Part shown: positions 3,855 through 34,632 of the stretch, piece by piece
Numbering within the stretch: the stretch's first letter is position 1
Layout of the letters: each line of letters opens with the position of its first letter
From: Methylobacter sp.
GTDB lineage: Bacteria > Pseudomonadota > Gammaproteobacteria > Methylococcales > Methylomonadaceae
Assembly (NCBI GenBank): GCA_030679035.1
Contig: JAUXTH010000194.1
Location: 1 to 40,772, forward strand
DNA: 40,772 nucleotides
Reading direction: 5' to 3'
Translations under genes and position numbers: made by a program
The notes under the pieces: generated by a model
Database searches by the model: none
Told to the model about the DNA's origin: nothing
What the model saw: the letters and a program-made list of their open reading frames with translations, nothing else

Positions 3855-4556
3855 TTATGAGGCATCCAACTTGTAACCGAATCCTCGCACAGTCTTGAGA
3901 AGTTTTAGCTCGTAATCGTCATCGATTTTTCGTCTCAACTGGCGAATATAGACATCCACCACATTGGTCAATGGGTCGCTGCTGTAGCCCCATACTTGTT
4001 CCAGTATTCGGGTACGGCTCAACACCTTTCCGGGCGTCCGCATAAGGCATTCCAGTAAGGAAAACTCCTTCGGCGTCAGCTCGATTAGAGTGTCTCCGCG
4101 CCTCACTTCATGTGTTTCCCCGTTCAATATGAGGTCGGCTATCTGTAATTCTTTGGTTTCCGGTTTGGTCTCGCCGCCAGCACCACGGCGGCGCATCAGA
4201 ACCTCGATTCGGGCAAGCAGTTCCTCAAATGCGAAAGGCTTGGTCATATAGTCATCGGCGCCCGAGCGCAAGCCGGTCACCTTGTCCTGCACGGTGTCTC
4301 TGGCCGTCAACATTAGAATCGGAGTGTGGATGCCACCGTTACGCAAGCGCTCGCAAACCTGTCGGCCATTGAGATCAGGCAAGCCCAGATCCAGGATGAT
4401 GACCTGAAACTTACCCTCGGCGCCCAGCGCTACGGCCTCCAGTCCGCTTCGGGCCACCTCGACGGCATAGCCTTCCGCCTTCAGTCCGCGCTGAACAAAA
4501 TTGACAATCCGTTCATCGTCTTCCACCAACAGAACTCGCATGTATCCGATACTCAT
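3855..4556 (-). CDS. OmpR/PhoB-family response regulator
   Basis: This is a two-domain DNA-binding regulator. The receiver domain spans about residues 6-120, with the acidic pair E12-D13-D14, phospho-acceptor Asp56 in ILDLGLPDL, the conserved Thr in MLTAR and Lys in TKPF. A winged-helix domain occupies about residues 135-231 (LTPKEFSLLECLM, DVYIRQLRRKID, VRGFGYKL). ATG at 4541 (MRVLLVEDD) is an equally good start and fits the usual N-terminus better. It is the last gene of the kinase operon, 18 bases after the canonical kinase, which is its probable partner. Its stop codon sits at the junction with the IS6 remnant, although the C-terminal motif is complete. Confidence 0.93.
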   Translation of the reverse strand: MSIGYMRVLLVEDDERIVNFVQRGLKAEGYAVEVARSGLEAVALGAEGKFQVIILDLGLPDLNGRQVCERLRNGGIHTPILMLTARDTVQDKVTGLRSGADDYMTKPFAFEELLARIEVLMRRRGAGGETKPETKELQIADLILNGETHEVRRGDTLIELTPKEFSLLECLMRTPGKVLSRTRILEQVWGYSSDPLTNVVDVYIRQLRRKIDDDYELKLLKTVRGFGYKLDAS

Positions 4557-4574: not shown

Positions 4575-6176
4575 TTAGTTTTCATTTAGCTGGTTGTCAT
4601 CCTGTTCTATCGAAATCAGCGGAAGCGTTACCGTGAACGTCGAGCCTGAGTTTTCAATGCTGGTCACGGTGATGCGTCCGCCGTGCGCCTTCGTGATCGA
4701 CTTGGCCATCGGTAAGCCTAGGCCCTTGCCGTCGTCCCGAGAGCTCAGGGCATTCTGGCTGCGGAAATGGCGGTCGAAAATACGCTCCAAATCCTGGGCG
4801 GGTATGCCTATGCCTTGATCCGTGAGGCTGAAGCTTGCCTCTTTTCCGTTTACCCGTAAAGCGACCGCGATGTGTCCTTCTGGGGTTGAATATCGGCAGG
4901 CATTGTCGCCGAGAATGAATAGTACCTGTCGAAGCCGTTCTTTGTCACCGCGTACCCACACAGGATCGGCTACTGTATCCAGGGAAACCGATAGCGAGTG
5001 TTCCTCCGCCATTACTTGAAAATTCTCGACGGCGCCGGCCACCAGTTCTGCCAGGTCCAAGCTGTCCCATTCAAATTGGAGGTTGGCGGTTTCGGTGCGG
5101 GCTAAAAACAACAGGTCGTTGACGTATTTTCCCAATTGCATCGCCAGATCGACGATGCGGTGCAGCGCGTCCTTATATTCTTCGGCATCCCGATCCTGGC
5201 CTCGCAGAGTGACCTCCGCCTCCCCGCGGATGACGGTAATCGGGGTGCGCAGTTCATGGCTGATGTCGGCTAAAAACTCGCGCCGCTCGTTGTCCATGCG
5301 TTTTAATTCTGCATTTAACTGATGGAGTTCCAAAGTGCGTTCGGCCACCCTTTTCTCCAACGCGGCGCGTCCCTCGCGCAGTTTATTTTGCTGAACTTCC
5401 AGTTCCTGCGCCATTTGATTGAAGTGGCTGGCGAGGTAGCCGAATTCGTCGCGGCTATCGAGAGCAATGCGGTAATCCAAATTACCGGAGGCAATCTCGT
5501 CGGTACCCGTCATCAACGCATCGATAGGTTTCCTAAAGCCGCGCAGCAATAATATCCCGGCCGTCAGGCTAAATAGCGCCGCAGTCAATGACGCCAAGAT
5601 AGCGATCCAATGTGACTGAGCGACCAAATCCTCCAGTTCTTGCTTGGCCTGTCCGGCCTTTTCCCGTTCGGCGTTGATGGCTGTATCGATCAGAGGTTGG
5701 AATTTTCCGTCGATTTCTTCTTCGGAGAATTTCGACAACGCTTGCACCGCCATTTCGGTCTTACCCTGTTGACGCAAGCGCTCGACTTCGTCGAACCGAT
5801 ACTCGCTGGCATCCAGAAAAGCGGTGAAGTGGGCAACCCTTTCCAGCTCTGCGGGTTTATCAGGCCAATCATCACCATGATTCTCTGCGACCGCAGTATT
5901 TCTAAGTTCCTGCATCGCTTCGTAGAGGCGATACTTGGATGATTCTACACCGGCTTCCGCAGTGGGGCTGGCCGTTACCAGTCTATCCATCCGCTGTTTG
6001 AAGTGGCGATAGGCTTCCTGAGACAAGCGCTCGTAACGATCGAAAGCCTCATATGCCGCTTGGCTGCGCTGAAAATTCCGGGCAACCTGGTTTGAACCCC
6101 AATAGAGTGCGAATCCTAAAAATAAGACAAAGCCGAACGAAACAACGATGACTACTGCCAAGCGGAAACGAAACAT
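4575..6176 (-). CDS. Membrane sensor histidine kinase (canonical)
   Basis: The architecture is TM1 at about residues 8-28, an extracytoplasmic helical sensor of about 160 residues, TM2 at about 192-212, HAMP to about 265, a short coiled coil, HisKA and HATPase_c. Phospho-acceptor His307 is intact in ADISHELRTP. The N-box (LGDNACRYS), G1 (DQGIGIP), F-box (IFDRHF) and G2 (GKGLGLPMAK) are all present, so kinase activity is expected. The helical sensor resembles four-helix-bundle periplasmic domains. The gene follows the lipoprotein by 5 bases and precedes the regulator by 18, so the three genes are very likely one transcript. No ligand can be deduced. Confidence 0.92.
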   Translation of the reverse strand: MFRFRLAVVIVVSFGFVLFLGFALYWGSNQVARNFQRSQAAYEAFDRYERLSQEAYRHFKQRMDRLVTASPTAEAGVESSKYRLYEAMQELRNTAVAENHGDDWPDKPAELERVAHFTAFLDASEYRFDEVERLRQQGKTEMAVQALSKFSEEEIDGKFQPLIDTAINAEREKAGQAKQELEDLVAQSHWIAILASLTAALFSLTAGILLLRGFRKPIDALMTGTDEIASGNLDYRIALDSRDEFGYLASHFNQMAQELEVQQNKLREGRAALEKRVAERTLELHQLNAELKRMDNERREFLADISHELRTPITVIRGEAEVTLRGQDRDAEEYKDALHRIVDLAMQLGKYVNDLLFLARTETANLQFEWDSLDLAELVAGAVENFQVMAEEHSLSVSLDTVADPVWVRGDKERLRQVLFILGDNACRYSTPEGHIAVALRVNGKEASFSLTDQGIGIPAQDLERIFDRHFRSQNALSSRDDGKGLGLPMAKSITKAHGGRITVTSIENSGSTFTVTLPLISIEQDDNQLNEN

Positions 6177-6181
6177 ACGTT

Positions 6182-6748
6182 CTAATTGGTGTCGCCGGTC
6201 TCGTCCAGATGTTTTTCCATGGACCTGATGGCTTCCAGCTTTTCTCGTAGAAGCTGAGCTTCATTTTTCTTCGATCCATTGGTATCTTTCGATTCCAGAA
6301 CAGATTGGACGGTTTTTTGTTTGTGCTCCAGCGAACCGAGTTTTCTCGACACATTCTGTAGACGTTTTAAGGCTTCGGTATGAATAGCGACAAATCGCTG
6401 CATTCGTTCATCGGCCAGGCTTCCGGGGGGAATAGAGTTTACCCCGTTCAGAATTTTGGGGATGTCGCCACAGGCATCGGAAAGTAAGCGGCCCACCATC
6501 AGGTGCAAGTGTACTCCTGCTCCGGGAGGATTTTTTTGGCGCTTCAATAAGGTGTGACATACATCGGCGCGTGAGGAAGCGGGTATTTTGCTCATGTTGG
6601 CTCCGAAAGCCAGCAGTTCATCAAAGTCCGACTGCGCGTAGGGGTCGTTATAACGGTCTGGATAACCGGAATACATTTGAGCGCATCCTGTCAGCAACAA
6701 GAAGCTTAGCGCTAAACTGATGTTTCGAATAGAAGGTAATGACAGCAT
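6182..6748 (-). CDS. QseG-like outer-membrane lipoprotein of a kinase operon
   Basis: I place the start at ATG 6748, which gives a standard lipoprotein signal (21 residues ending LLLTG before Cys). The longer frame starts with GTG at 6781 inside the upstream kinase gene. The mature part has a Tyr/Asp-rich segment, two Cys that could pair (in DVCHTLL and SDACGDI), a predicted helical region, and a charged coiled-coil-like C-terminus. In E. coli the glrK-qseG-glrR operon encodes a lipoprotein between the kinase and the regulator, and QseG activates GlrK. By position and general character this protein looks like that type. The assignment is from context and weak resemblance, not a firm match. 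Confidence 0.6.
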   Translation of the reverse strand: MLSLPSIRNISLALSFLLLTGCAQMYSGYPDRYNDPYAQSDFDELLAFGANMSKIPASSRADVCHTLLKRQKNPPGAGVHLHLMVGRLLSDACGDIPKILNGVNSIPPGSLADERMQRFVAIHTEALKRLQNVSRKLGSLEHKQKTVQSVLESKDTNGSKKNEAQLLREKLEAIRSMEKHLDETGDTN

Positions 6749-6770
6749 AAATAGTGTTGTTCCAAATTTT

Positions 6771-8435
6771 TCAGGCTTCACCGGTTAACGGCAGTTGAAC
6801 GCGGATGCGGGCCCCATGTTGATCTTGTCTTGCGTCAATAATGTCGACTTTGCCCTGATGGTTGGTGACATACTCTTTCACAATAGCCAGCCCCAATCCT
6901 GGACCTTCGACATACTCGTCGCCTTGGGAGGTCTTGCCGCGGAAAAAGGGTTCGAACACATGCGAACGTTCATCCGGTTCAATGCCCGGACCCTCATCTT
7001 CGACTTCCAATTCCATCTGCGTGCCCGAATCGCGCAGCATAATGCGTATTTCGCCGCCCACCGGCGAATATTTCACCGCATTCGACATTAACTGCTCGAT
7101 AATGCTGCGCAATTGGTCGTGGATTCCGGCAATCTCGACCGGCCTGACCAACTTTTTCACGCTAATCGACTTGGTCTGTAGACGGCTTTGAAAATCCGCG
7201 ATGACTGACTCAAGCAAGTTTTTCATATTGACGGTTGCTTTGCGGTTCAGCTCCGGCTTCGAGTTGATCTGACTATAACGAACCAATTCTTCGGACACTG
7301 TTTTCAGCTTGTCGACATTGCTACAGAGTAGCTGTGCAAACTCCTGCCGTACACTGTCCTGTTCCTCATTCGCTTCGTTTACAAGCAGTTCGGCGGCCTC
7401 AAGGATACTCTCCAACGGCAGGTCGATCTCGCGGGCCACGTTGTGCATGAACTGCTGTTTGGAAACTTCCAGCTCCATCAAATGCGTACGCAGCCATTCC
7501 AGGCGATTGCCTAGATAGCGCATATCTGAAGGGCCTTCAACATCGATCGGTTCGTCGAGTTCTCCCGAACCGAGACGGCGGATGCTGGTATCCAACTGCC
7601 GCATTGAACGCGAGAGTATAACCAACAGTATCGCGATGAAGATAAACGAGATGGCCAACAGAACCGCACCCTTGATTAACAGTCCCTGCTCAAGCGATTC
7701 TGATTGTTGGCGCAATTCGTTGAATTCATGGTCAACGTGGTTCTCGAATTCACGCGAAAGGCTGGAGGAGGAATCACGCAGCCCTTGGAACGCTTCATCG
7801 ACCGGCAGTTTAAGATTATTCTCGCTCGCCGAACCAATGATCTGTTGATAAATCAGATTTTCCTTTTCCGATAACTCGTTAACCAGTAGAGCGATTTTGT
7901 TATCGACATGGAGTTTTAGTAATTCGCTCAAGGCTTGTTTGAACGATGCCCGCGTACTTTCATACGATTGCTGCTCATAAGGCTGACGTAGGGTTGGGTC
8001 TGACAGCAGAACGAATAGTCTGGCTTTTCGCTCAATATCGCCGGTCTTTTGCAAAACCGAGCGTATCGCCTTAGTTTGTTCGAAGACTTGGGAATTGATA
8101 GTCCTGCCCAATGCCGAGGTTTCGCGCATGCCAAAAGCAGCGTACATCACGGCGAAAAAAAGCGGAATAACGGCAATTACAAAGCCCAGGACGATAAGGG
8201 ACTTTAACGATAGAAGATTTTTGAACTTTATCCGGTTGAAAAGAGATGTAAGTCGTTCTCCTTGATTCGACCATGGCTTTGACAAAAGTTTCGATAAATC
8301 CGGTTTTTTGAACATATCCAGAACAAGGTTGGTAATGAATGCTTTCATTGATTTGTGTATTTGATTGTCAAAAGTAAGCCTCTCTACAATAAACCATTCG
8401 GGATGCCGCACTGCAAGGGAACCCGATTTGGGCAT
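6771..8435 (-). CDS. GlrK-like sensor kinase homologue lacking the phospho-acceptor His (pseudokinase)
   Basis: The protein has TM1 at about residues 79-101, a helical periplasmic sensor at about 102-250, TM2 at about 252-275, HAMP at about 276-328, an H-box segment, and a complete HATPase_c domain (N452 in the N-box, D480-E-G-P-G, FEPFF, GPGLGL at 511-516). In the H-box the string is FMHNVAREIDLP, so the position of the essential His is Arg335 (codon CGC, read from 7433 to 7431), and the usual Arg/Lys-Thr after the Glu is Asp-Leu. It should bind ATP but cannot autophosphorylate in the usual way. It is the first gene of the operon. The N-terminus before TM1 is long, and ATG 8348 is an alternative start. 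Confidence 0.88.
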   Translation of the reverse strand: MPKSGSLAVRHPEWFIVERLTFDNQIHKSMKAFITNLVLDMFKKPDLSKLLSKPWSNQGERLTSLFNRIKFKNLLSLKSLIVLGFVIAVIPLFFAVMYAAFGMRETSALGRTINSQVFEQTKAIRSVLQKTGDIERKARLFVLLSDPTLRQPYEQQSYESTRASFKQALSELLKLHVDNKIALLVNELSEKENLIYQQIIGSASENNLKLPVDEAFQGLRDSSSSLSREFENHVDHEFNELRQQSESLEQGLLIKGAVLLAISFIFIAILLVILSRSMRQLDTSIRRLGSGELDEPIDVEGPSDMRYLGNRLEWLRTHLMELEVSKQQFMHNVAREIDLPLESILEAAELLVNEANEEQDSVRQEFAQLLCSNVDKLKTVSEELVRYSQINSKPELNRKATVNMKNLLESVIADFQSRLQTKSISVKKLVRPVEIAGIHDQLRSIIEQLMSNAVKYSPVGGEIRIMLRDSGTQMELEVEDEGPGIEPDERSHVFEPFFRGKTSQGDEYVEGPGLGLAIVKEYVTNHQGKVDIIDARQDQHGARIRVQLPLTGEA

Positions 8436-8702
8436 TGAAAAGTCCCAGTATGCATCTGATACATTTGCTGACTAGCTCGACTTAATAGTCGTTATTATAC
8501 ACACAAGTGCCGCATTACTAGCTTGTCGGATATGATTAGGATTTGATTAAAAGTATTGTTTAAATTCAAAAAAATGTTCACTTTAGTAGATATTACGCAA
8601 ATTGTATCAACGTCACCCCGGCAGGGATGACGCATTGTATAGATACCTATGCACTCAAAGGGTAAGTTCGGCAGTTTATCCATAACCAAATTTTTATCAG
8701 CT
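8436..8702. promoter_or_regulatory. Divergent promoter region with a 22-base palindrome
   Basis: This gap separates the minus-strand kinase operon from the plus-strand glycosidase and must hold promoters for both. At 8611-8632 there is a near-perfect palindrome with arms CGTCACCCC and GGGATGACG around a four-base centre. It could be an operator, or another small dispersed repeat of the kind seen elsewhere in the window. No convincing -35/-10 pair could be assigned by eye. Confidence 0.4.
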
Positions 8703-11700
8703 ATGAAGTCATTGATTTTGTTTATTTTTATATTGCAAGCGGTGTTGGTTGCGCTGGCCGGGTTGCCCGTTGCCAAAGCCGATGTATTCGCTGGATTACC
8801 GGTACACGGCACCGCCGAGAGACCGACGGTGCTGCTCGAACTGGGCAATGCGCCGCCGTCGGTTGGCGTTGATGATAAGGCAACGCGGGTGTTTACAGGT
8901 GGAGTTTCCGCCCATGAAGGGGACGCTTCGATTCAGACCGATAAAGATGAAATCAGTTCCTTGCACCCCGGTTTCGGCAGCTGGAAGGTCAGTTTCCGCT
9001 TCAAGGTCAAACCCGGCCTCGCGGCCAAGCCGTATACCTTTTGGGCTCGTTGGCGGCAGGGTGGCGATCCCAATGTCTGCGTGCAATCCTTTGAAGTCTG
9101 GGCCGGACCCGATCCATCCAGGCTGGAGCTGCGCGCCACACTGTCCATGAAACCGAAGGGTTGGGAATATGCCTGGATAGCCGCCGAGTCGCCGGTAAGT
9201 CTCAAGGCCGACGATGCCGTCATCGAGGTGCGGGATAACGGTGCCGGTCATGACGCCAAGGTCTTCGACGCCTTCCTGCTCGCCCCGCCATTGTCCGCTC
9301 TGCCGACCAGCGGCACGGCAGACAGGCCGCTGGTGCTGCTGGACTTGGGCAATGCGCCTGCGCTTGCAGCAATGGAAAAAGATCCGGCCCTGCAAGTCCA
9401 GCTCGGCACGGCCACTGCCGGCCCTGGCGCCGAATCGGTGTTGACCGAAAAGGACGAAGTTCAGGTTTTTCATCAGGGTTTCGGCAGCTGGGGCGCAAAT
9501 TTCCGATTTGAACTCAATCCGGCGATTGCCCCGGGGCAGTACCGTGTTTATGCCCGCTACAAAAGCGGCGGCGAGGTTTCCCAAGTCAGCCAAAATTTCA
9601 CCGTCAAGGCCGGGGCAAAGCCGGATGAACTGGCGACGCGCGGCGATTTCGCTCTGACCAACACCACGCCTTGGGAATATCAATGGTTGCAGTCCGCAGC
9701 TTCCGTCACAGTGCTGCCGGGCGATCGCTGGCTGGAAATCAACAACACCGGCAAAGCGGACGGGAACAAGGTCTTCGACGCCTTCCTGCTGAAGATGGAA
9801 ACGCCGCTGGGCGACTGGATGAGTGCCGCCGAGGCCCAGGCCAGGAATCGCTTTCTGGCGCTGACCAAGGCAGTGCCGGCGGTGACCCAGCGTCTTTATG
9901 TGTTAGATGGCAAAGGCGACAAAAGTGAAATCCTGTTCCGCGGCTTGGCTTCCGAGGCCGCGCGGCCTCGTTATGAAAAGCTGTCGGTCTCCTATCTGGT
10001 AGGGCCGGAAGCCGAAGCCTTGGCCCGCAGCTTGAATATCTCGGCACTGCCTGCCGCATTGATGACCGACGATCATTACGGCATCCTAGGCGTGTTGGCC
10101 CAGCCCAACAATGAACAGGCCGTAACCGGATTTCTTGCCGACCCGGGCAAAGTCGGCATGATGCCTACGCCGCCTGCGGTCGCTGGAGAAACCTCCACGC
10201 CGCTTAAGGGCGGCATACCGGATGCCTGGCTGGTGGGCGGTTTGCAGGACGGCTTATCGGGCGTTTCGGTTTTCGGGCTGGATAGCGAAACCGTATTGCG
10301 TCCGAATCCCGGCCAGCCTTATCTCAGCCTGCAAATGATGGGCGGGGAAATGAGGGCTTGGCATGTCGCGGCGACGGAGGCCAGCGGCGTTATGGACATC
10401 GAGGCCAACACCCAGCATTCCTACGGCTGGTCGCGCGGCAGCGGCTATGCGCAGCTGTACCTGCATGTCGATCAGCCCACAAAGGCGTTACTGCATCTGA
10501 AACAATCCGGCATCAGAACCTTCGTCTGGCTGGATGGGCAGTCTTTTAAATTAGCCGACGATCCTAATCCTCCTGCCGGGTTTTCGTCATCTCCCGGCGA
10601 GCAGGTAAAAAAACTGCTGCATGGGCTGACTACCGAAGGGCTGGTGGCGACCGCGTTGTCGGCTCGTCCCGAAGCGCCGCAACTTGCGACGCTGAATCTG
10701 TCGCCGGGATGGCATAGCCTGCTGGTCAAGCTGGTGATGCAACATGACAAAAACCAACGGTTTTACTTCGCAGGCTTATTAACCGATCCGGCCGGTAAGC
10801 CTCTGGATTCGATCAAGACGCAACCGGCCGATCCCGGCGCCGATCTGGCGCTTAACGGCATCGCCGCCAAGCTGCGGCCTGTGATTTTCGTCGACGCGCC
10901 GGCCAACCTGCCGCATCCGGGCGACCCGCTTAAACTGCGGGTGGACATGCGCTGGCATCCGATTCTGGAGGAAACCGCTTTGCCTGCACCATTGCCGCGC
11001 TTTCCGGCAAAACTGCGGCTGCGTCTGGTTGATTACGGGGGCAACGAGATCGCGGTGCGGGAAATAAGCGGTCAGTTTCCCGGCCAAGTCGAAGCAGACT
11101 TCGGCAAGATCAGCGAGCCCGGCTACTACGCCGTTTACCCCTCGCTGCATACGCCTGACGGCAAGTTGATCATGAACTATCCCGCCGATGGCTTTTCTGT
11201 CGTGGGTGGATCGGCCGAGCAAAAGCATAGACTGGACAAGAAAAAGCTATGGAACAACGACTATTACGCCTTGGCCGACGGGGACAAGAGCTTCAAGCAG
11301 GAAGGTGGGTATTTTTCCTGGCTGGAACGGATGGGGATCTACAAAAGCTTTGGCAGCTATCCGGGCTTCGATCAGCAATATCGGGCGAAGTGGGGGCGAG
11401 CGAAACAACTCGGCTTGGTCTTGTTCGCCGACTCCTCGGGCGACAGCACTTGGCTGAATGACAATCAGGCAGACGGCCAAAACTTCATCAACACGGCTTC
11501 GGCATTTACCCGTTTCTTCAAATCGACCAATGAGATCGACATTCGCTCGGATGCCGAATGGCAAAAACTGCGCGAGCCTGCGCATTGGGTGCAACGCGCC
11601 AAGTGGGAATATGAACAGGCGCACAAGCAGCGCAGCGATGCCCATTACGTTGGCGGCAGTCTGGTGCGGCCGGGCGACAAGGAAGGGGCAGGGCAGTGGT

Positions 11701-12368
11701 TCAAACAGGTGTTGGAACTAGGTCTGGATCATTATCAGGACGCCTGGGATGTTCACGCCTATCCCCAGCAAGCGCCGCGTTTCGGCGGCCCGATCGGCAA
11801 CGGCGAAAACGAGGATGAACGTGGTGTGCTGGCCACATACGCCAGCCTGGGCCGGAAGAACAGCTTGCCTTTTTGGCTGGGCGAAACCGGCGCCAAAGCG
11901 ATGCATGGCTTGACAGGACGCCGCTGGCAGGCAGAACAGGCCGCGAAAATGATCGCCTGGGTTAACAGCCGCAGCGATTACTTAGGCATAGCTTTCTGCA
12001 TAGGCCATGAATACGACTTGGCCTATGGACGGATCTGGGATTACTCGATGGGTCACAAGCCCGGCGAGGCGGCACTGTATACCGCAGGCGCACTGATCGA
12101 CGGCCTGCCGTATAAAGCCTTCGATACCAAGGACGCCAATATCCAGGCGGCTTACTTCGGAGAAACCTTGATGATTTGGCGAACCGATGAGGCAGTCGGT
12201 AATTGGCGGCAGCAGCTTGTTCCCGGTAAATTCTGGGTGCTGGTGGATGTGGTAGGGCATATCCAAGAATTGACGGTTGATGCCTCGGGATACGCGGATA
12301 TCCCGATCTCCGCTAGCCCGGTTTATGTGTTGTCGCGAGCCGAATATGAACGATTGACCAGAAATTGA
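8703..12368 (+). CDS. Secreted multidomain glycoside hydrolase, clan GH-A-like
   Basis: I start at ATG 8703, where a signal peptide begins (MKSLILFIFILQ, cleavage near AKADV); an in-frame ATG lies at 8649. Numbering from 8649, two homologous domains follow at about residues 50-213 and 220-383. Each opens with GTA(E/D)RP..LL(E/D)LGNAP, contains GFGSW and ends KVFDAFLL, and each looks like a beta-sandwich or carbohydrate-binding unit. Further beta-rich segments run to about 860. The C-terminal part looks like a (beta/alpha)8 glycosidase: Glu962 in STNEID is the candidate acid/base and Glu1079 in WLGETGAK the candidate nucleophile, 117 residues apart, with DVHAYP between. Its place beside the polysaccharide locus suggests it acts on that polymer outside the cell. 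No exact GH family is assigned. Confidence 0.75.
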   Translation: MKSLILFIFILQAVLVALAGLPVAKADVFAGLPVHGTAERPTVLLELGNAPPSVGVDDKATRVFTGGVSAHEGDASIQTDKDEISSLHPGFGSWKVSFRFKVKPGLAAKPYTFWARWRQGGDPNVCVQSFEVWAGPDPSRLELRATLSMKPKGWEYAWIAAESPVSLKADDAVIEVRDNGAGHDAKVFDAFLLAPPLSALPTSGTADRPLVLLDLGNAPALAAMEKDPALQVQLGTATAGPGAESVLTEKDEVQVFHQGFGSWGANFRFELNPAIAPGQYRVYARYKSGGEVSQVSQNFTVKAGAKPDELATRGDFALTNTTPWEYQWLQSAASVTVLPGDRWLEINNTGKADGNKVFDAFLLKMETPLGDWMSAAEAQARNRFLALTKAVPAVTQRLYVLDGKGDKSEILFRGLASEAARPRYEKLSVSYLVGPEAEALARSLNISALPAALMTDDHYGILGVLAQPNNEQAVTGFLADPGKVGMMPTPPAVAGETSTPLKGGIPDAWLVGGLQDGLSGVSVFGLDSETVLRPNPGQPYLSLQMMGGEMRAWHVAATEASGVMDIEANTQHSYGWSRGSGYAQLYLHVDQPTKALLHLKQSGIRTFVWLDGQSFKLADDPNPPAGFSSSPGEQVKKLLHGLTTEGLVATALSARPEAPQLATLNLSPGWHSLLVKLVMQHDKNQRFYFAGLLTDPAGKPLDSIKTQPADPGADLALNGIAAKLRPVIFVDAPANLPHPGDPLKLRVDMRWHPILEETALPAPLPRFPAKLRLRLVDYGGNEIAVREISGQFPGQVEADFGKISEPGYYAVYPSLHTPDGKLIMNYPADGFSVVGGSAEQKHRLDKKKLWNNDYYALADGDKSFKQEGGYFSWLERMGIYKSFGSYPGFDQQYRAKWGRAKQLGLVLFADSSGDSTWLNDNQADGQNFINTASAFTRFFKSTNEIDIRSDAEWQKLREPAHWVQRAKWEYEQAHKQRSDAHYVGGSLVRPGDKEGAGQWFKQVLELGLDHYQDAWDVHAYPQQAPRFGGPIGNGENEDERGVLATYASLGRKNSLPFWLGETGAKAMHGLTGRRWQAEQAAKMIAWVNSRSDYLGIAFCIGHEYDLAYGRIWDYSMGHKPGEAALYTAGALIDGLPYKAFDTKDANIQAAYFGETLMIWRTDEAVGNWRQQLVPGKFWVLVDVVGHIQELTVDASGYADIPISASPVYVLSRAEYERLTRN

Positions 12369-13888: not shown

Positions 13889-14209
13889 GCATCTCAAATA
13901 AAAGCAATTAACATTCTAAAGTATTTTTTAGGGTGCAAGAACAGGTTCGGCTAGTGTCGACACGCTATCAATCCCCGATCTGAAAGAGCAATGGTTTCGG
14001 GAAAGATTTTTTCTAATTCCTACTCCCTTCCTGAAGTTACTCCGATCTTCATCTAATTTTAATTAAACCCACAGGTTTCCTCTCATCTTGTCTCTGTAGT
14101 CTATGTCCCATCGTAGCGATTGGTGAATAACGCCGGTCGCAATTACTTTGGGGATGGACGGTTGTTACCGTTCATCATTGAATGCAGACAGAATAGGGAG
14201 TTAACGAAT

Positions 14210-15631
14210 ATGCCACTCGCTTTAGGCAACATCTTCAACGGGCTCTTTAAGCAATATGGACACACCGTGATCCTATTGCTGCGGTTTATCGATATAGCCA
14301 TGCTCATCGGCGCCGCTTGGGTTTCCCATTATTTCTGGCTTCGCCAGTTCGTCGTCGATCAGGATTACCGCATAGTGGTCTCCCTGGGTATTTTGGCGGC
14401 CATCATCTTTTTCGAAATCGGCCAAGTTTACCGTCCCTGGTCGAATGACACCATGCGCGGGGAAGTCGCGCGTGTCGTCAGGGCTTGGGTATCCGCGATC
14501 GTGTCGGTTATTTCCATTGTTGCATTGGTTCGTATGCATTTCTGGTTCGGCTCCAGTTATCGCTGGATCGTTACATGGTGGGTGCTGGGATTGTTATTCG
14601 TCCTCGCCGCCCGTAGTTTGCTGTCCCATGCGTTGCAATGGTTGCGCTCCCGTGGCTGGTCTCAGGGGCGTATCGTTTTGGTCGGATTGAACCAGATGGC
14701 GGTTGCGGTTAGCCGACAGTTGAGCCATTCATCCTGGGCAGGCTTGGAAGTCGTCGGTTATGTCGATGACCCATCCGAAAATCAGCGTACGGTGGGCGAT
14801 TTATCGCTGCCGCGACTCGGAGATTTGGAAGACCTCACTGCCATCGTCACCAAGGAAGCCATTGACGAAGTATGGATTGCGTTCCCCGGCGAATCGTTGG
14901 CCGAACGTGCACAGTATCAACTGCGGCATCTGCCGGTCAGTATCCGGCTGGTTATCGACTGCTTTGATTTCAAACAGAGCAAATTCCTCAGCCTGAACAC
15001 GGTGGCCGGTATTCCGACATTGGATTTTTCGGTTTCCCCGTTGCATGGCGTTAACCGCTATATCAAGGAGGTCATGGATAGATTCTTTGCACTTATCCTG
15101 TTGATTCTGATCAGTCCGTTGCTGCTGCTGATCTCTATCGGCGTCAAGCTGAGTTCGCCAGGCCCGGTGTTTTACCGGCAAGAGCGGATTGGTTGGAACA
15201 ACCGTTCGTTCACGATGATGAAGTTCCGCTCGATGCCGGTGGACGCCGAAGCCAAAACCGGAGCGGTGTGGGCAAAGCCTGGCGAACAACGGGCGACGCG
15301 ATTCGGCGCTTTTTTGCGCAAAACCAGCCTGGACGAACTGCCGCAACTGATCAATGTGCTTAAGGGCGACATGTCCCTGGTCGGACCTCGTCCTGAACGC
15401 CCGGATTTTGTCGAAGTCTTCAAGGATCAGGTGCCTAATTACATGAAAAAGCACATGGTCAAGGCCGGCATCACCGGCTGGGCGCAAGTCAACGGCTGGC
15501 GAGGTGACACTGACTTGAACCGGCGCATCGAACACGATTTGTATTACATCCAGCATTGGTCGGTTTGGTTCGATCTGGAAATTGCACTGCGCACTGTACT
15601 AACCGGTTTTATCAATAAAAATGCTTATTGA
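14210..15631 (+). CDS. wcaJ: Undecaprenyl-phosphate sugar phosphotransferase (WcaJ/EpsE type)
   Basis: This enzyme begins the repeat unit by moving a sugar-1-phosphate, typically glucose, from the UDP-sugar to undecaprenyl phosphate at the inner membrane. The start at ATG 14210 is chosen because AGGGAG lies about 10 bases upstream; the frame is open to 14120. The N-terminal half has four membrane segments and a CoA-binding-like Rossmann part (RIVLVGLNQMAVAV). A fifth segment (FFALILLILISPLLLLI) leads into the catalytic domain with KLSSPGPVFYRQERIGWNN, FRSM, LDELPQLINVLKGDMSLVGPRPE and ITGWAQVNGWRGDT. The length of 473 residues is normal. First gene of the polysaccharide locus. Confidence 0.94.
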   Translation: MPLALGNIFNGLFKQYGHTVILLLRFIDIAMLIGAAWVSHYFWLRQFVVDQDYRIVVSLGILAAIIFFEIGQVYRPWSNDTMRGEVARVVRAWVSAIVSVISIVALVRMHFWFGSSYRWIVTWWVLGLLFVLAARSLLSHALQWLRSRGWSQGRIVLVGLNQMAVAVSRQLSHSSWAGLEVVGYVDDPSENQRTVGDLSLPRLGDLEDLTAIVTKEAIDEVWIAFPGESLAERAQYQLRHLPVSIRLVIDCFDFKQSKFLSLNTVAGIPTLDFSVSPLHGVNRYIKEVMDRFFALILLILISPLLLLISIGVKLSSPGPVFYRQERIGWNNRSFTMMKFRSMPVDAEAKTGAVWAKPGEQRATRFGAFLRKTSLDELPQLINVLKGDMSLVGPRPERPDFVEVFKDQVPNYMKKHMVKAGITGWAQVNGWRGDTDLNRRIEHDLYYIQHWSVWFDLEIALRTVLTGFINKNAY

Positions 15632-15713
15632 GGCGAAAGACTAAGGGCTAAGGGCGAGAGGTGGATACGTTGAAATTCAGGTTTTTTAGCCTTGAGCCTT
15701 TCGTCTTTCGCCT
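15631..15713. repeat. Imperfect inverted repeat between wcaJ and wza
   Basis: The left arm begins AGGCGAAAGAC at 15631 and the right arm, ending at 15713, is its reverse complement (GTCTTTCGCCT). Pairing continues imperfectly inward for about 25 bases (GGGCTAAGG against CCTTGAGCC). It starts on the last base of the wcaJ stop codon. It could form a hairpin that weakens readthrough into wza. Confidence 0.6.
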
Positions 15714-15770
15714 GCTCTTAAAACCATCGCTTTCATAAATATGCTGCATGACTATAGGAATACATTTGCC

Positions 15771-16898
15771 ATGATTAGATTAACGTTTAGATCAATGCCC
15801 CTGATACCGGCTTTGCTGCTGCAAGCCTGCTCTTTAACGCCCGGCATGGAGATGGAGACCAACAGCCCGTCATCGAATATAGAGGTTCCGATGATGGTAG
15901 ACGGCAAGTTAATCAAGGAAAAGGCGAAGATTTCTCAGATTACCGCAGACCTGATTATCGACCGGGAAAATTCGAAACGACGGGAGATCAACGAACTACC
16001 GTCTCAGGTTGTCCCGATGACCGCATATAAGATCGGACCGCATGACAGGCTTCAAATCACGGTGTGGGAACATCCAGAATTGAACGATCCGGGCGGCGAG
16101 AAAATCGACCCCGAGTTGGCGGGCAAGATGGTCCAAGATGACGGCATGCTTTATTACCCCTACGTGGGCAACATCCAGGTGAAAGGCAAAACCGCCAACG
16201 AGGTTCGGGAGTTATTGAGCCAAGGGCTTTCCAAATACTTCAAGAAAGTCAAACTCGATGTCCGGGTGCTGTCTTTCCAGAGTCATCGGACAGCCGTGGT
16301 CGGTCAGGTCAAAACGCCGGGGATCCAGGCGATGACCGAGACGCCATTGACGATTACCGAAGCCATCAGCCGTGCTGGCGGCGTGACCGAGGATGCCGAT
16401 ATGAGCAACGTGACCTTGGCCCGCGATGGCAAGCTCTATAAAATCGATGTTCTGAGGTTATACGAAAAGGGCGGCGCTGAGCAAAACCTGCTGCTCAAGG
16501 ACGGCGACGTGCTGAATGTCTCCGACCGCAAGGACAACGAGGTGTTCGTAATGGGCGAAGTCGGCAAGCAGCAGGCTCTGCAAATCAACAAGGGCAAATT
16601 GACGCTCGCACAGGCGCTGGCGAAAGCCTATGGGATTGATTTCAATACTTCGCTGGCGGAAGAGGTTTATGTGATTCGGACAGGAGAGCTAAAGACGGGA
16701 GAGCTAAAGCCGGAAATTTTCCAGTTGAATGCGAAATCGCCTGACGCGCTGATTCTAGCGGATCAGTTCCACTTGCAAGCTCACGATACCGTTTTCGTAA
16801 GTACCGCAGGCGTGACCCAGTGGTCCCGAGTCCTGAACCAAATCCTGCCGTCATCTTTCACGTCGGTTATGTCGAAAGCCGCCACCATGGGCTTGTAA
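15771..16898 (+). CDS. wza: Polysaccharide export lipoprotein, Wza family
   Basis: The start at ATG 15771 gives a lipoprotein signal with lipobox LLLQAC. Wza-type proteins form the outer-membrane export channel for group 1-like capsules and exopolysaccharides. The Poly_export domain begins at YKIGPHDRLQITVWEHPEL, followed by SLBB-like domains (VVGQVKTPGIQAMTETPLTITEAISRAGG; then VFVMGEVGKQ.ALQINKGKLTLAQALAKAYG). The C-terminal amphipathic stretch (WSRVLNQILPSSFTSVMSKA) fits the helix that crosses the outer membrane. A 15-base tandem duplication at 16680-16709 adds the residues TGELK twice. The gene lies 52 bases upstream of wzc. Confidence 0.92.
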   Translation: MIRLTFRSMPLIPALLLQACSLTPGMEMETNSPSSNIEVPMMVDGKLIKEKAKISQITADLIIDRENSKRREINELPSQVVPMTAYKIGPHDRLQITVWEHPELNDPGGEKIDPELAGKMVQDDGMLYYPYVGNIQVKGKTANEVRELLSQGLSKYFKKVKLDVRVLSFQSHRTAVVGQVKTPGIQAMTETPLTITEAISRAGGVTEDADMSNVTLARDGKLYKIDVLRLYEKGGAEQNLLLKDGDVLNVSDRKDNEVFVMGEVGKQQALQINKGKLTLAQALAKAYGIDFNTSLAEEVYVIRTGELKTGELKPEIFQLNAKSPDALILADQFHLQAHDTVFVSTAGVTQWSRVLNQILPSSFTSVMSKAATMGL

Positions 16899-33384: not shown

Positions 33385-34632
33385 TTGAATATCACAAGAG
33401 AGCATAATGAGATTAAAATTATAGGTGACTTCGATAATTTTCCTATACTCCTTTCTTATATTTATACCGCTGTTAATAAAGCTGAATTTTCTGAAATTAT
33501 ACTCAATTTTAGCGAGTGCAGCTCAGCTTTTCAGAATGCGATGCTTTCTATATGTGCGCAAATTTCAGCATATAGAAAGGCGGGGATATATTTCACATTT
33601 ATACCTCCTAAAGACGTCAAGCTATTAAATCTATTTAAAAATACAGGTTGGGCTTATTTCATTGACCCTAGAATGTTTGAACCCCCTATTTATAGAAGCT
33701 ATTCTTCAAGAATACCTGTAACACAATATCAAAGTCCAAAGGAACAATTAGACGCCGTTAATAAAATTGTCAACGTAATTCTTGGTGCAATTCCAGAAAT
33801 GCAACGTTCTGATTTTGCGGCATTTGAGTGGGCTATAAATGAAATAACGGATAATGTATTAGTACATTCTGAATCACCAGTTGGTGGATTTATTCAACTT
33901 TCTACATTTCAAAAAAATAAAAAACAAGTTCAATTTGTCGTTGCAGACGCTGGAATTGGTATTCCTAAAACTCTTAAACAGGGTCATCCTGAAATTGGGT
34001 CAGATACGGACGCCTTGGATAAAGCGATTAGGGAAGGAGTTACTAGAGATAAAACAGTTGGTCAAGGTAACGGATTATTTGGGAGCTATCAAATTTGTAG
34101 TAAATCTGGTGGTTATTTCGGTGTTCATTCTGGACACGCTTGTTTAGAGTTTTCTAATAGAAAAGGATTATCTATAGCCAATGAAAACATCCCTTATGAT
34201 GGAACACTTGTTATAGCAACAATAGATTTTTCAAATCCCAAGCTTCTTGAAGAAGCACTGAGCTTTGGTGGTAAAAAGCATATTCCAGTCGACTATGTTG
34301 AAACAAATTATGAGATGTCAGAAGACGGGTTGATTCATTTTATATTAAAAGTAGAATCAGATTCATTTGGAAGTCGTGTTGCTGGGAAGCCAGTGCGTAA
34401 CAAATTGGCCAATTTACTTAGAATGGGTGGAAGCCAAAAAATTATCATTGATTTAGCTGATATAGCCCTGATTTCTAGTAGTTTTGCTGATGAAGCATTT
34501 GGGAAATTATTTCTTGAAGTTGGAGCCGTATCATTTATGCAAAAATTTGAATTTATTAACGTAATGGATACGGTTAGACAGCTAATTGATAAGGCTATAA
34601 CTCAACGACTATCTGCTGGTGTTTCTGATTAA
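33385..34632 (+). CDS. STAS-GHKL ATPase-DUF4325 single-chain protein
   Basis: The start is a TTG at 33385 with GGAG about 10 bases upstream. Residues about 1-95 look like a STAS domain (EIILNFSECSSAFQNAMLSICAQI). Residues about 120-285 are a GHKL ATPase of the anti-sigma-kinase type with N-box EITDN (Asn157), G1 DAGIGIP (Asp188) and G2 GQGNGLFG (226-233). Residues about 325-400 match DUF4325, a STAS-like domain (SRVAGKPVRNKL; IIIDLADIALISSSFADEAF). STAS domains are the usual substrates of such kinases, so kinase and possible substrates sit in one chain. The gene is strongly AT-rich and clearly foreign to its neighbours. It is followed 118 bases later by a membrane protein. Confidence 0.82.
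   Translation: MNITREHNEIKIIGDFDNFPILLSYIYTAVNKAEFSEIILNFSECSSAFQNAMLSICAQISAYRKAGIYFTFIPPKDVKLLNLFKNTGWAYFIDPRMFEPPIYRSYSSRIPVTQYQSPKEQLDAVNKIVNVILGAIPEMQRSDFAAFEWAINEITDNVLVHSESPVGGFIQLSTFQKNKKQVQFVVADAGIGIPKTLKQGHPEIGSDTDALDKAIREGVTRDKTVGQGNGLFGSYQICSKSGGYFGVHSGHACLEFSNRKGLSIANENIPYDGTLVIATIDFSNPKLLEEALSFGGKKHIPVDYVETNYEMSEDGLIHFILKVESDSFGSRVAGKPVRNKLANLLRMGGSQKIIIDLADIALISSSFADEAFGKLFLEVGAVSFMQKFEFINVMDTVRQLIDKAITQRLSAGVSD

Follow-up and report, generated by a model that had tools for sequence, protein, structure and literature searches.

A QseE/GlrK paralogue without the phospho-acceptor histidine as a candidate receptor subunit for a second sensor kinase in methanotrophs of the order Methylococcales

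The 40,772-nucleotide stretch of Methylobacter sp. contig JAUXTH010000194.1 that was analysed here (the window) encodes a membrane histidine kinase homologue with arginine at the site of the phospho-acceptor histidine, and this protein (PK) is probably a QseE/GlrK paralogue that has lost its catalytic activity and serves as a receptor subunit, passing the signal of a QseG-type lipoprotein (LIPO) to another, intact kinase (HK2). PK is followed on the same strand by LIPO, HK2 and an OmpR-type response regulator, in that order (Table 1). We further propose, with a confidence that falls a little short of even, that comparison of these genes across genomes reveals a four-part envelope system (lipoprotein, dead receptor kinase, live kinase and regulator) in which the QseE-QseG sensing unit would have been cut from its own output and re-plugged, the signal travelling between two sensor kinases via their periplasmic and membrane parts.

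Table 1. Features of the window discussed in the text
Feature	Position	Strand	Remarks
PK	6771..8435	-	membrane histidine kinase homologue, derived from QseE/GlrK as judged from Pfam, PDB profile match and orthologue alignment
Arg335 codon of PK	7431..7433 (read 7433-7431)	-	CGC at the phospho-acceptor His position
PK DHp region	7251..7475	-	residues 321-395; domain least conserved within the PK clade
PK CA/ATPase region	6786..7250	-	residues 396-550; every ATP box present
Counterpart in PK of the QseG-binding face of QseE	7992..8033	-	E135-R136...R139...L143-L144..D146, for QseE E69, R70, R73, V77, L78, D80
LIPO	6182..6781	-	QseG-type lipoprotein with lipobox LLLTGC; the starts of orthologues place its likely start at 6748
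HK2	4575..6176	-	canonical HisKA kinase, SHELRTP, His307; proposed partner of PK
Response regulator	3855..4556	-	OmpR type, Asp56
Extended -10-like element	8493..8508	-	TGTGTATAATA; lies upstream of PK, and relatives have the identical 16-mer
Large divergent protein	8649..12368	+	1239 aa; often adjoins PK
Start of exopolysaccharide cluster	14120..16898	+	WcaJ-type sugar transferase 14120-15631, Wza-type export protein 15741-16898

The H-box region of PK reads ...KQQFMHNVAREIDLPLES..., in which residue 335 is Arg and Asp-Leu-Pro stands at the usual place of Lys-Thr-Pro, the Lys-Thr of the H-box being lost; this Thr is the usual phosphatase residue of HisKA kinases. The ATP boxes are intact (N, SNAVKYSP; G1, DEGPGIE; F, FEPFFRG; G2, EGPGLGLA), and the Pfam score of the HATPase_c domain is high (1.6e-24, 86.9 bits) while that of HisKA (21.1 bits) lies below the cut-off of 26.9. 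A first-pass annotation of this DNA, which gave no strand, had reported the Arg (CGC) for His at 335 with the ATPase boxes kept, the loss of the Lys-Thr-Pro part and a canonical kinase two genes downstream, and all of these are found on the minus strand, the kinase with its SHELRTP. The real start of PK is probably Met30 (position 8348), because the open frames of five close orthologues (L043-L047) begin at the equivalent place in a DNA alignment; from there PK has 525 aa and Arg335 becomes residue 306.

We compared neighbourhoods in 114 stretches (73 PK rows, 39 canonical rows and 2 third paralogues). His was absent from the acceptor site in 67 of the 72 PK rows in this count, which leaves L151 outside; the residues were Arg in 51, Leu in 6, His in 5, Glu in 3, Thr in 2, and Lys, Cys, Ile, Asn and Tyr in one each. 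The acceptor was His in 39/39 canonical GlrK-type rows of Methylococcales, and among further QseE-like loci the best 28, from a class sample with a match in 65 of 303 genomes, all read HELKTP. A strain-specific mutation as the origin of Arg335 is ruled out by these orthologues, His being far from general among close relatives when this earlier suggested check was run; the Arg itself, whose conservation had also been in question, is not what the clade conserves, with nine other residues in its place elsewhere in the clade. The codons of the 51 Arg rows are CGC in 34, CGT in 6, CGA in 5, CGG in 4 and AGA in 2, and all ten pairs compared have a dN/dS of 0.05-0.15 for PK residues 66-550; these low ratios and an Arg kept through five synonymous codons make the PK pattern more than chance, and the clade fits a long-lived pseudokinase under purifying selection, much as the earlier claim of selection on a non-catalytic role supposed. 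That Arg is selected as such is doubtful, site 335 coming 29th when the 75 DHp positions are ordered by their conservation in 57 f1 rows. In three PK rows (L126, L140 and L142) the His is lost and KTP is kept, and in the five rows that bear His (L052, L122, L123, L124 and L054) EIEAP or EINRP replaces ELKTP, without Lys-Thr; these five could be active.

The best solved match to PK in a PDB profile search was 9m08 (E 4.5e-35, aligned over residues 76-550), an entry titled 'histidine kinase' that we infer to be Salmonella QseE of the QseG-QseE complex, its sister entries 9M06 and 9M07 belonging to PMC12691602 as far as the accessible text of that paper goes. E. coli GlrK aligns with PK over 464 columns (4e-54), and the homology to QseE/GlrK is full-length, sensor included. 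Nearly all named carriers belong to the methanotrophs, 39 of 41 loci being labelled Methylococcales or Methylococcaceae or with the name of such a genus, with one uncultured proteobacterium and one weak Limisphaerales match besides; the named relatives include Methylobacter, Methylomonas, Methylovulum and Methyloglobulus. The QseE residues that touch QseG are known, in the portion of the account available, from PMC12691602, and their counterparts are largely kept: in the 75 rows that are not GlrR-type, a set that includes the two third paralogues, the E69 counterpart is Glu in 72, that of R70 is Arg in 72 (the other three being gaps) and that of R73 is Arg or Lys in 71, and those of L78 and D80 are largely retained. 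At 30-45% overall identity, 285 PK pairs share 0.52 of their sensor and 0.25 of their DHp residues, whereas 446 canonical pairs share 0.23 and 0.47, respectively; constraint is thus inverted in PK, with the sensor the most conserved domain and DHp the least. The first-pass annotation had missed both the QseE/GlrK descent and the retention of a QseG-type lipoprotein, which suggest that the sensor is the working part under conservation.

QseG is an outer-membrane lipoprotein that activates QseE by binding its sensor, according to the parts available of PMC12691602 and PMC6075780. In the window LIPO is encoded directly after PK and has a lipobox, and the gene in this place was called a lipoprotein in 70 of the 73 PK rows. 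Its identity to the LIPOs of GlrR cassettes is 20-32% (BLAST), and against E. coli QseG a 25-column tail alone aligns (hhalign, P 0.056, not significant by itself); a profile search of the PDB with LIPO gave no QseG match. At this P of 0.056 the C-terminal KLEAIRSMEK of LIPO, which holds two of its five invariant columns, lines up with KLENLTDIER of QseG, which by position carries L209, E213 and R214. The window's LIPO has Ile, Glu and Lys at the counterparts of 209, 213 and 214 and differs from QseG in lacking an Arg at 219, which is essential there.

PK resembles QseE/GlrK in its full-length homology, in the order of kinase then lipoprotein and in the counterparts of E69, R70, R73, L78 and D80; it differs in having neither the phospho-acceptor His nor the KT of HELKTP, and its locus differs from QseEGF in having another histidine kinase and an OmpR-type regulator in place of the NtrC-type GlrR (QseF). 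The two cassettes are sharply separated. GlrR lies downstream in 36 of the 39 canonical rows (35 at a stricter score, the L161 stretch being short) and was not seen beside L072, L156 and L166 within the stretches examined; HK2 lies downstream in 64 of the 73 PK rows; and there was no GlrR in the 73 PK rows and no HK2 in the 39 canonical rows of this comparison. Seven PK rows of f4 have LIPO without an adjoining HK2, and L136 and L151 end at contig edges. In nine PK-only genomes the best long match to GlrR had 40-44% identity (pieces of the AAA domain reached 51%) and in G000 it had 44%, and two canonical-cassette genomes gave 100% and 56% (the latter G057). H-E-x-R-T-P is present in HK2 at 81/81 loci and the Asp of the regulator at 74/74, a few genomes being counted twice. 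Third paralogues of PK in two f4 genomes, at 5823-7193 of L148 (G279) and 5957-7441 of L157 (G285), carry Asn or Asp where the acceptor His would be, and no lipoprotein was called beside them.

PK and HK2 also occur together across genomes. In a sample of 301 genomes of the order, PK was present in some form in 78 and HK2 in 75, with both in 74, PK only in 4 and HK2 only in 1 (thresholds of 1e-60 for HK2, 1e-90 for PK and 1e-10 for the PK sensor); divergent PKs were sought partly through HK2, and part of these data come from a 281-genome sample taken as lying within the 301, the membership of G160 being unproved. In the four PK-only genomes (G068, G160, G263 and G309) PK is at a contig end, and the HK2-only genome, G310, is 72% complete. 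The tie to the downstream canonical kinase supposed earlier thus stands, both in the adjoining genes and in the wider sample. In f1 the genes are linked, so that co-occurrence there may reflect joint transfer or loss; in seven f4 genomes (G057, G266, G279, G285, G294, G306 and G307), PK and HK2 are at separate loci. WcaJ-like genes lie no more than about 4 kb from the HK2-regulator pair in G294, G307, G266 and G306, and none were found near it in G057, G279 and G285 within the stretch examined. A very divergent PK in L227 (G289, 5643-7130) is on the opposite strand to an HK2-regulator pair; scored by eye, its His site is lost and its ATP boxes are mostly kept.

A tree built from 111 rows has a branch with a support of 100 that separates the canonical kinases from the PKs, the tree being a quick search with SH-aLRT only and several long branches (L054, L072, L136 and L151 were left out). 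At least two changes between His and non-His are needed on this tree, and with the canonical side taken as root we read them as one loss of His at the base and one regain in four nested rows (L052 and L122-L124, genus g12); the fifth His row, L054, is a fragment outside the tree. In family f1 PK is found in 65 of 237 genomes and canonical GlrK in 16 (assigned by score, and all but G072 inspected at the H-site), with both in none, and the two occur together in seven f4 genomes (G057, G266, G279, G285, G294, G301 and G307).

In a further seven genomes the kinase core of PK is gone and the sensor is kept. The PK open frames of G293, G297 and G299 (263, 248 and 300 codons) encode the sensor and membrane helices only, so that HAMP is missing in these three as well, and are followed directly by LIPO and then HK2, with the regulator next in G293 and G297 and beyond the contig in G299; PK of G295, G304, G263 and G309 ends after HAMP, with no DHp or CA in the tail by alignment, and HK2 and the regulator follow in G295, the contig ending earlier in the other three. 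Overall LIPO directly follows the coreless PK in six genomes, HK2 comes next in four and the regulator is visible in three. The counterparts of the QseG face are present in the coreless PKs too, and in a sensor-only tree all seven are on the PK side (canonical side 96), in two groups; a single origin may nonetheless underlie them. An individual case might reflect an assembly error; agreement is seen among three genomes of one genus. Possible steps are seen in living genomes: loss of His with retention of KTP, loss of KT, loss of the ATP boxes, and shedding of the core, which leaves a bare receptor.

We propose that LIPO would bind the periplasmic sensor of PK as QseG does that of QseE. PK, having no acceptor His, would be unable to autophosphorylate, and a conformational signal would hence go sideways to HK2; as HK2 is the partner that stays intact throughout and some lineages do without the core, the signal would most simply cross through sensor, transmembrane or HAMP contacts, and the intact HK2 would phosphorylate the OmpR-type regulator. 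Binding of LIPO, physical contact between PK and HK2, the sign of regulation and the target genes are all parts that we infer. A core held by nucleotide may provide a second layer in the main f1 clade, and Arg335 beside the nucleotide could, speculatively, lock it.

Action through the cytoplasmic core, on the model of RetS-GacS (and also DivL-like), is the best of the alternatives, though we think it unlikely: the ATP-bound dead core would heterodimerise with HK2 or bind the regulator, Arg335 fixing the state of CA. It would account for the invariance of N452, D480, G482, G484, F494 and G515 in 57 of 57 main f1 rows (G513 in 56, with one gap) and of E336, I337, P340, L341 and N332 in the same rows, counts that leave out five fast f1 rows (L141, L144, L145, L146 and L149), and for an Arg that dominates over synonymous codons; the invariant ATP-box residues mean that the core does something in this clade which a sensor-only model does not explain. 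Rates of divergence speak on both sides. With regulator and HK2 CA controlled for, and with pairs that are not independent, the divergence of the HK2 sensor correlated with that of the PK sensor at 0.47, LIPO at 0.53, PK CA at 0.50, PK DHp at 0.42 and PK HAMP at 0.28, and that of HK2 DHp with the PK sensor at 0.32, LIPO at 0.24 and PK CA at 0.12. Since PK CA tracks the HK2 sensor as well as the PK sensor does, the covariation supports partnership with the input half of HK2 and not a given contact, and we rejected it as proof of sensor-sensor contact. Against the core as the route stand the seven coreless genomes with their LIPO, HK2 and regulator genes, the low conservation of DHp, and L144/L145 (G137/G138), which have an intact cassette but have lost the N box, the G2 box and the second glycine of G1. 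These losses indicate that ATP binding is not essential to the role of the family; as a universal reason for keeping PK it is rejected, and it may still apply to the window's own clade. Across the family neither Arg nor the ATP site is universal, and the sensor and its partners come close to being so. Decayed ATP boxes in relatives, which the first-pass annotation had named as evidence against its view, are found in some lineages, while the main f1 clade has kept its boxes.

That PK merely tethers or titrates the lipoprotein, HK2 sensing by itself, is improbable; retention of the QseG face even in coreless forms and the absence of HAMP from three of these would suit it, but full-length PKs have a conserved HAMP (mean distance 0.29 vs 0.47 for DHp), which suggests signal transfer past the membrane, and the near-exact co-occurrence with HK2 would be left unexplained. 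We give very little weight to PK still being an enzyme, with another acceptor such as His331 or as a phosphatase only: His331 sits one helical turn upstream of site 335 and Glu336 is kept in 68 of 71 rows (N-box Asn in 69; L136 and L151 are outside these box counts), but about 8 of 27.6 weighted f1 sequences have Gln instead of this His, the phosphatase-motif Thr of the H-box is kept in only 6 of the 71, and coreless PKs exist. Least credible of all is that PK is the decaying remnant of a GlrK duplication and hitchhikes in the operon, which could explain why His, Lys-Thr, ATP boxes and the whole core were lost in different lineages but not the low dN/dS in every pair, the spread of PK through family f1 with its sensor most conserved, or co-occurrence with HK2 even when unlinked.

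To our knowledge, the histidine-kinase pseudokinases known so far are mostly single cases. Such proteins are already known in DivL, RocA and a form of ChrS. RocA of group A Streptococcus, in the sections available of PMC7028121, is a membrane pseudokinase acting on the separate intact kinase CovS; a form without the CA domain complements when overexpressed, and contact with CovS, seen by co-immunoprecipitation and not by two-hybrid, is proposed to run via membrane-spanning regions. It resembles PK in the role proposed here, as a dead kinase homologue that would act on an intact kinase, and differs in keeping a dispensable His (H246) and in its six putative transmembrane segments; no lipoprotein is mentioned in those sections (PMC7028121). 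DivL of Caulobacter (4q20, among the PDB matches of PK at 1.1e-11) has likewise had its acceptor His replaced, by Tyr, and been reused non-catalytically, acting towards CckA; unlike PK, it binds ATP weakly, reads DivK~P through the regulator-docking face with the help of PAS domains, and has no QseE-type sensor, as far as the available text of PMC4211667 describes. ChrS of Corynebacterium glutamicum likewise has a pseudokinase version of a sensor kinase, and differs in that this version promotes high heme tolerance (PMC9491836, available in part). What appears to be new, from the comparison of genomes, is a QseE-QseG unit that has moved to another kinase-regulator pair and persists in several methanotroph genera, together with forms intermediate between kinase and bare receptor; we found no report in the open literature of QseE in Methylococcales, of a QseEF pseudokinase or of the PK cassette. 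One bacterial order would thus offer a natural series that runs from an active kinase to a bare receptor and in which the active paralogue, the lipoprotein and the new kinase are identified. This series makes two questions testable: how a sensor is unplugged from one two-component output and replugged elsewhere, and what purpose the ATP site serves in a dead kinase.

The likely output of the PK-HK2 system would be the neighbouring exopolysaccharide genes, a cluster in the window with WcaJ, Wza, Wzc- and Wzy-type domains and glycosyltransferases. The PK-LIPO-HK2 cassette would then be a candidate regulator of exopolysaccharide in methanotrophs, and PK is carried by Methylomonas LW13 (L195), cultures of which form polysaccharide bands at a methane-oxygen counter gradient (PMC11072679, as far as available). 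Near the end of the cluster, at 33385-34632, is a protein with HATPase_c and a STAS-like DUF4325 domain. The exact 16-mer of the -10-like element upstream of PK was found in 21 of the 264 loci examined, several of these being the same place twice. The 1239-aa protein had no Pfam, NCBIfam or PDB sequence match, and a stretch of it resembles, by eye, a glycoside hydrolase region. Its gene adjoins PK in G279, G266, G285, G294 and G307 and not in G057 and G306; as an obligate partner of PK it was rejected, being present in 47 of 65 f1 PK genomes and occurring without PK in 2 genomes. Two minus-strand ORFs at 1247-2505, which lie past the regulator side of the cassette towards the left end of the contig, resemble, by eye, an IS3-type transposase pair.
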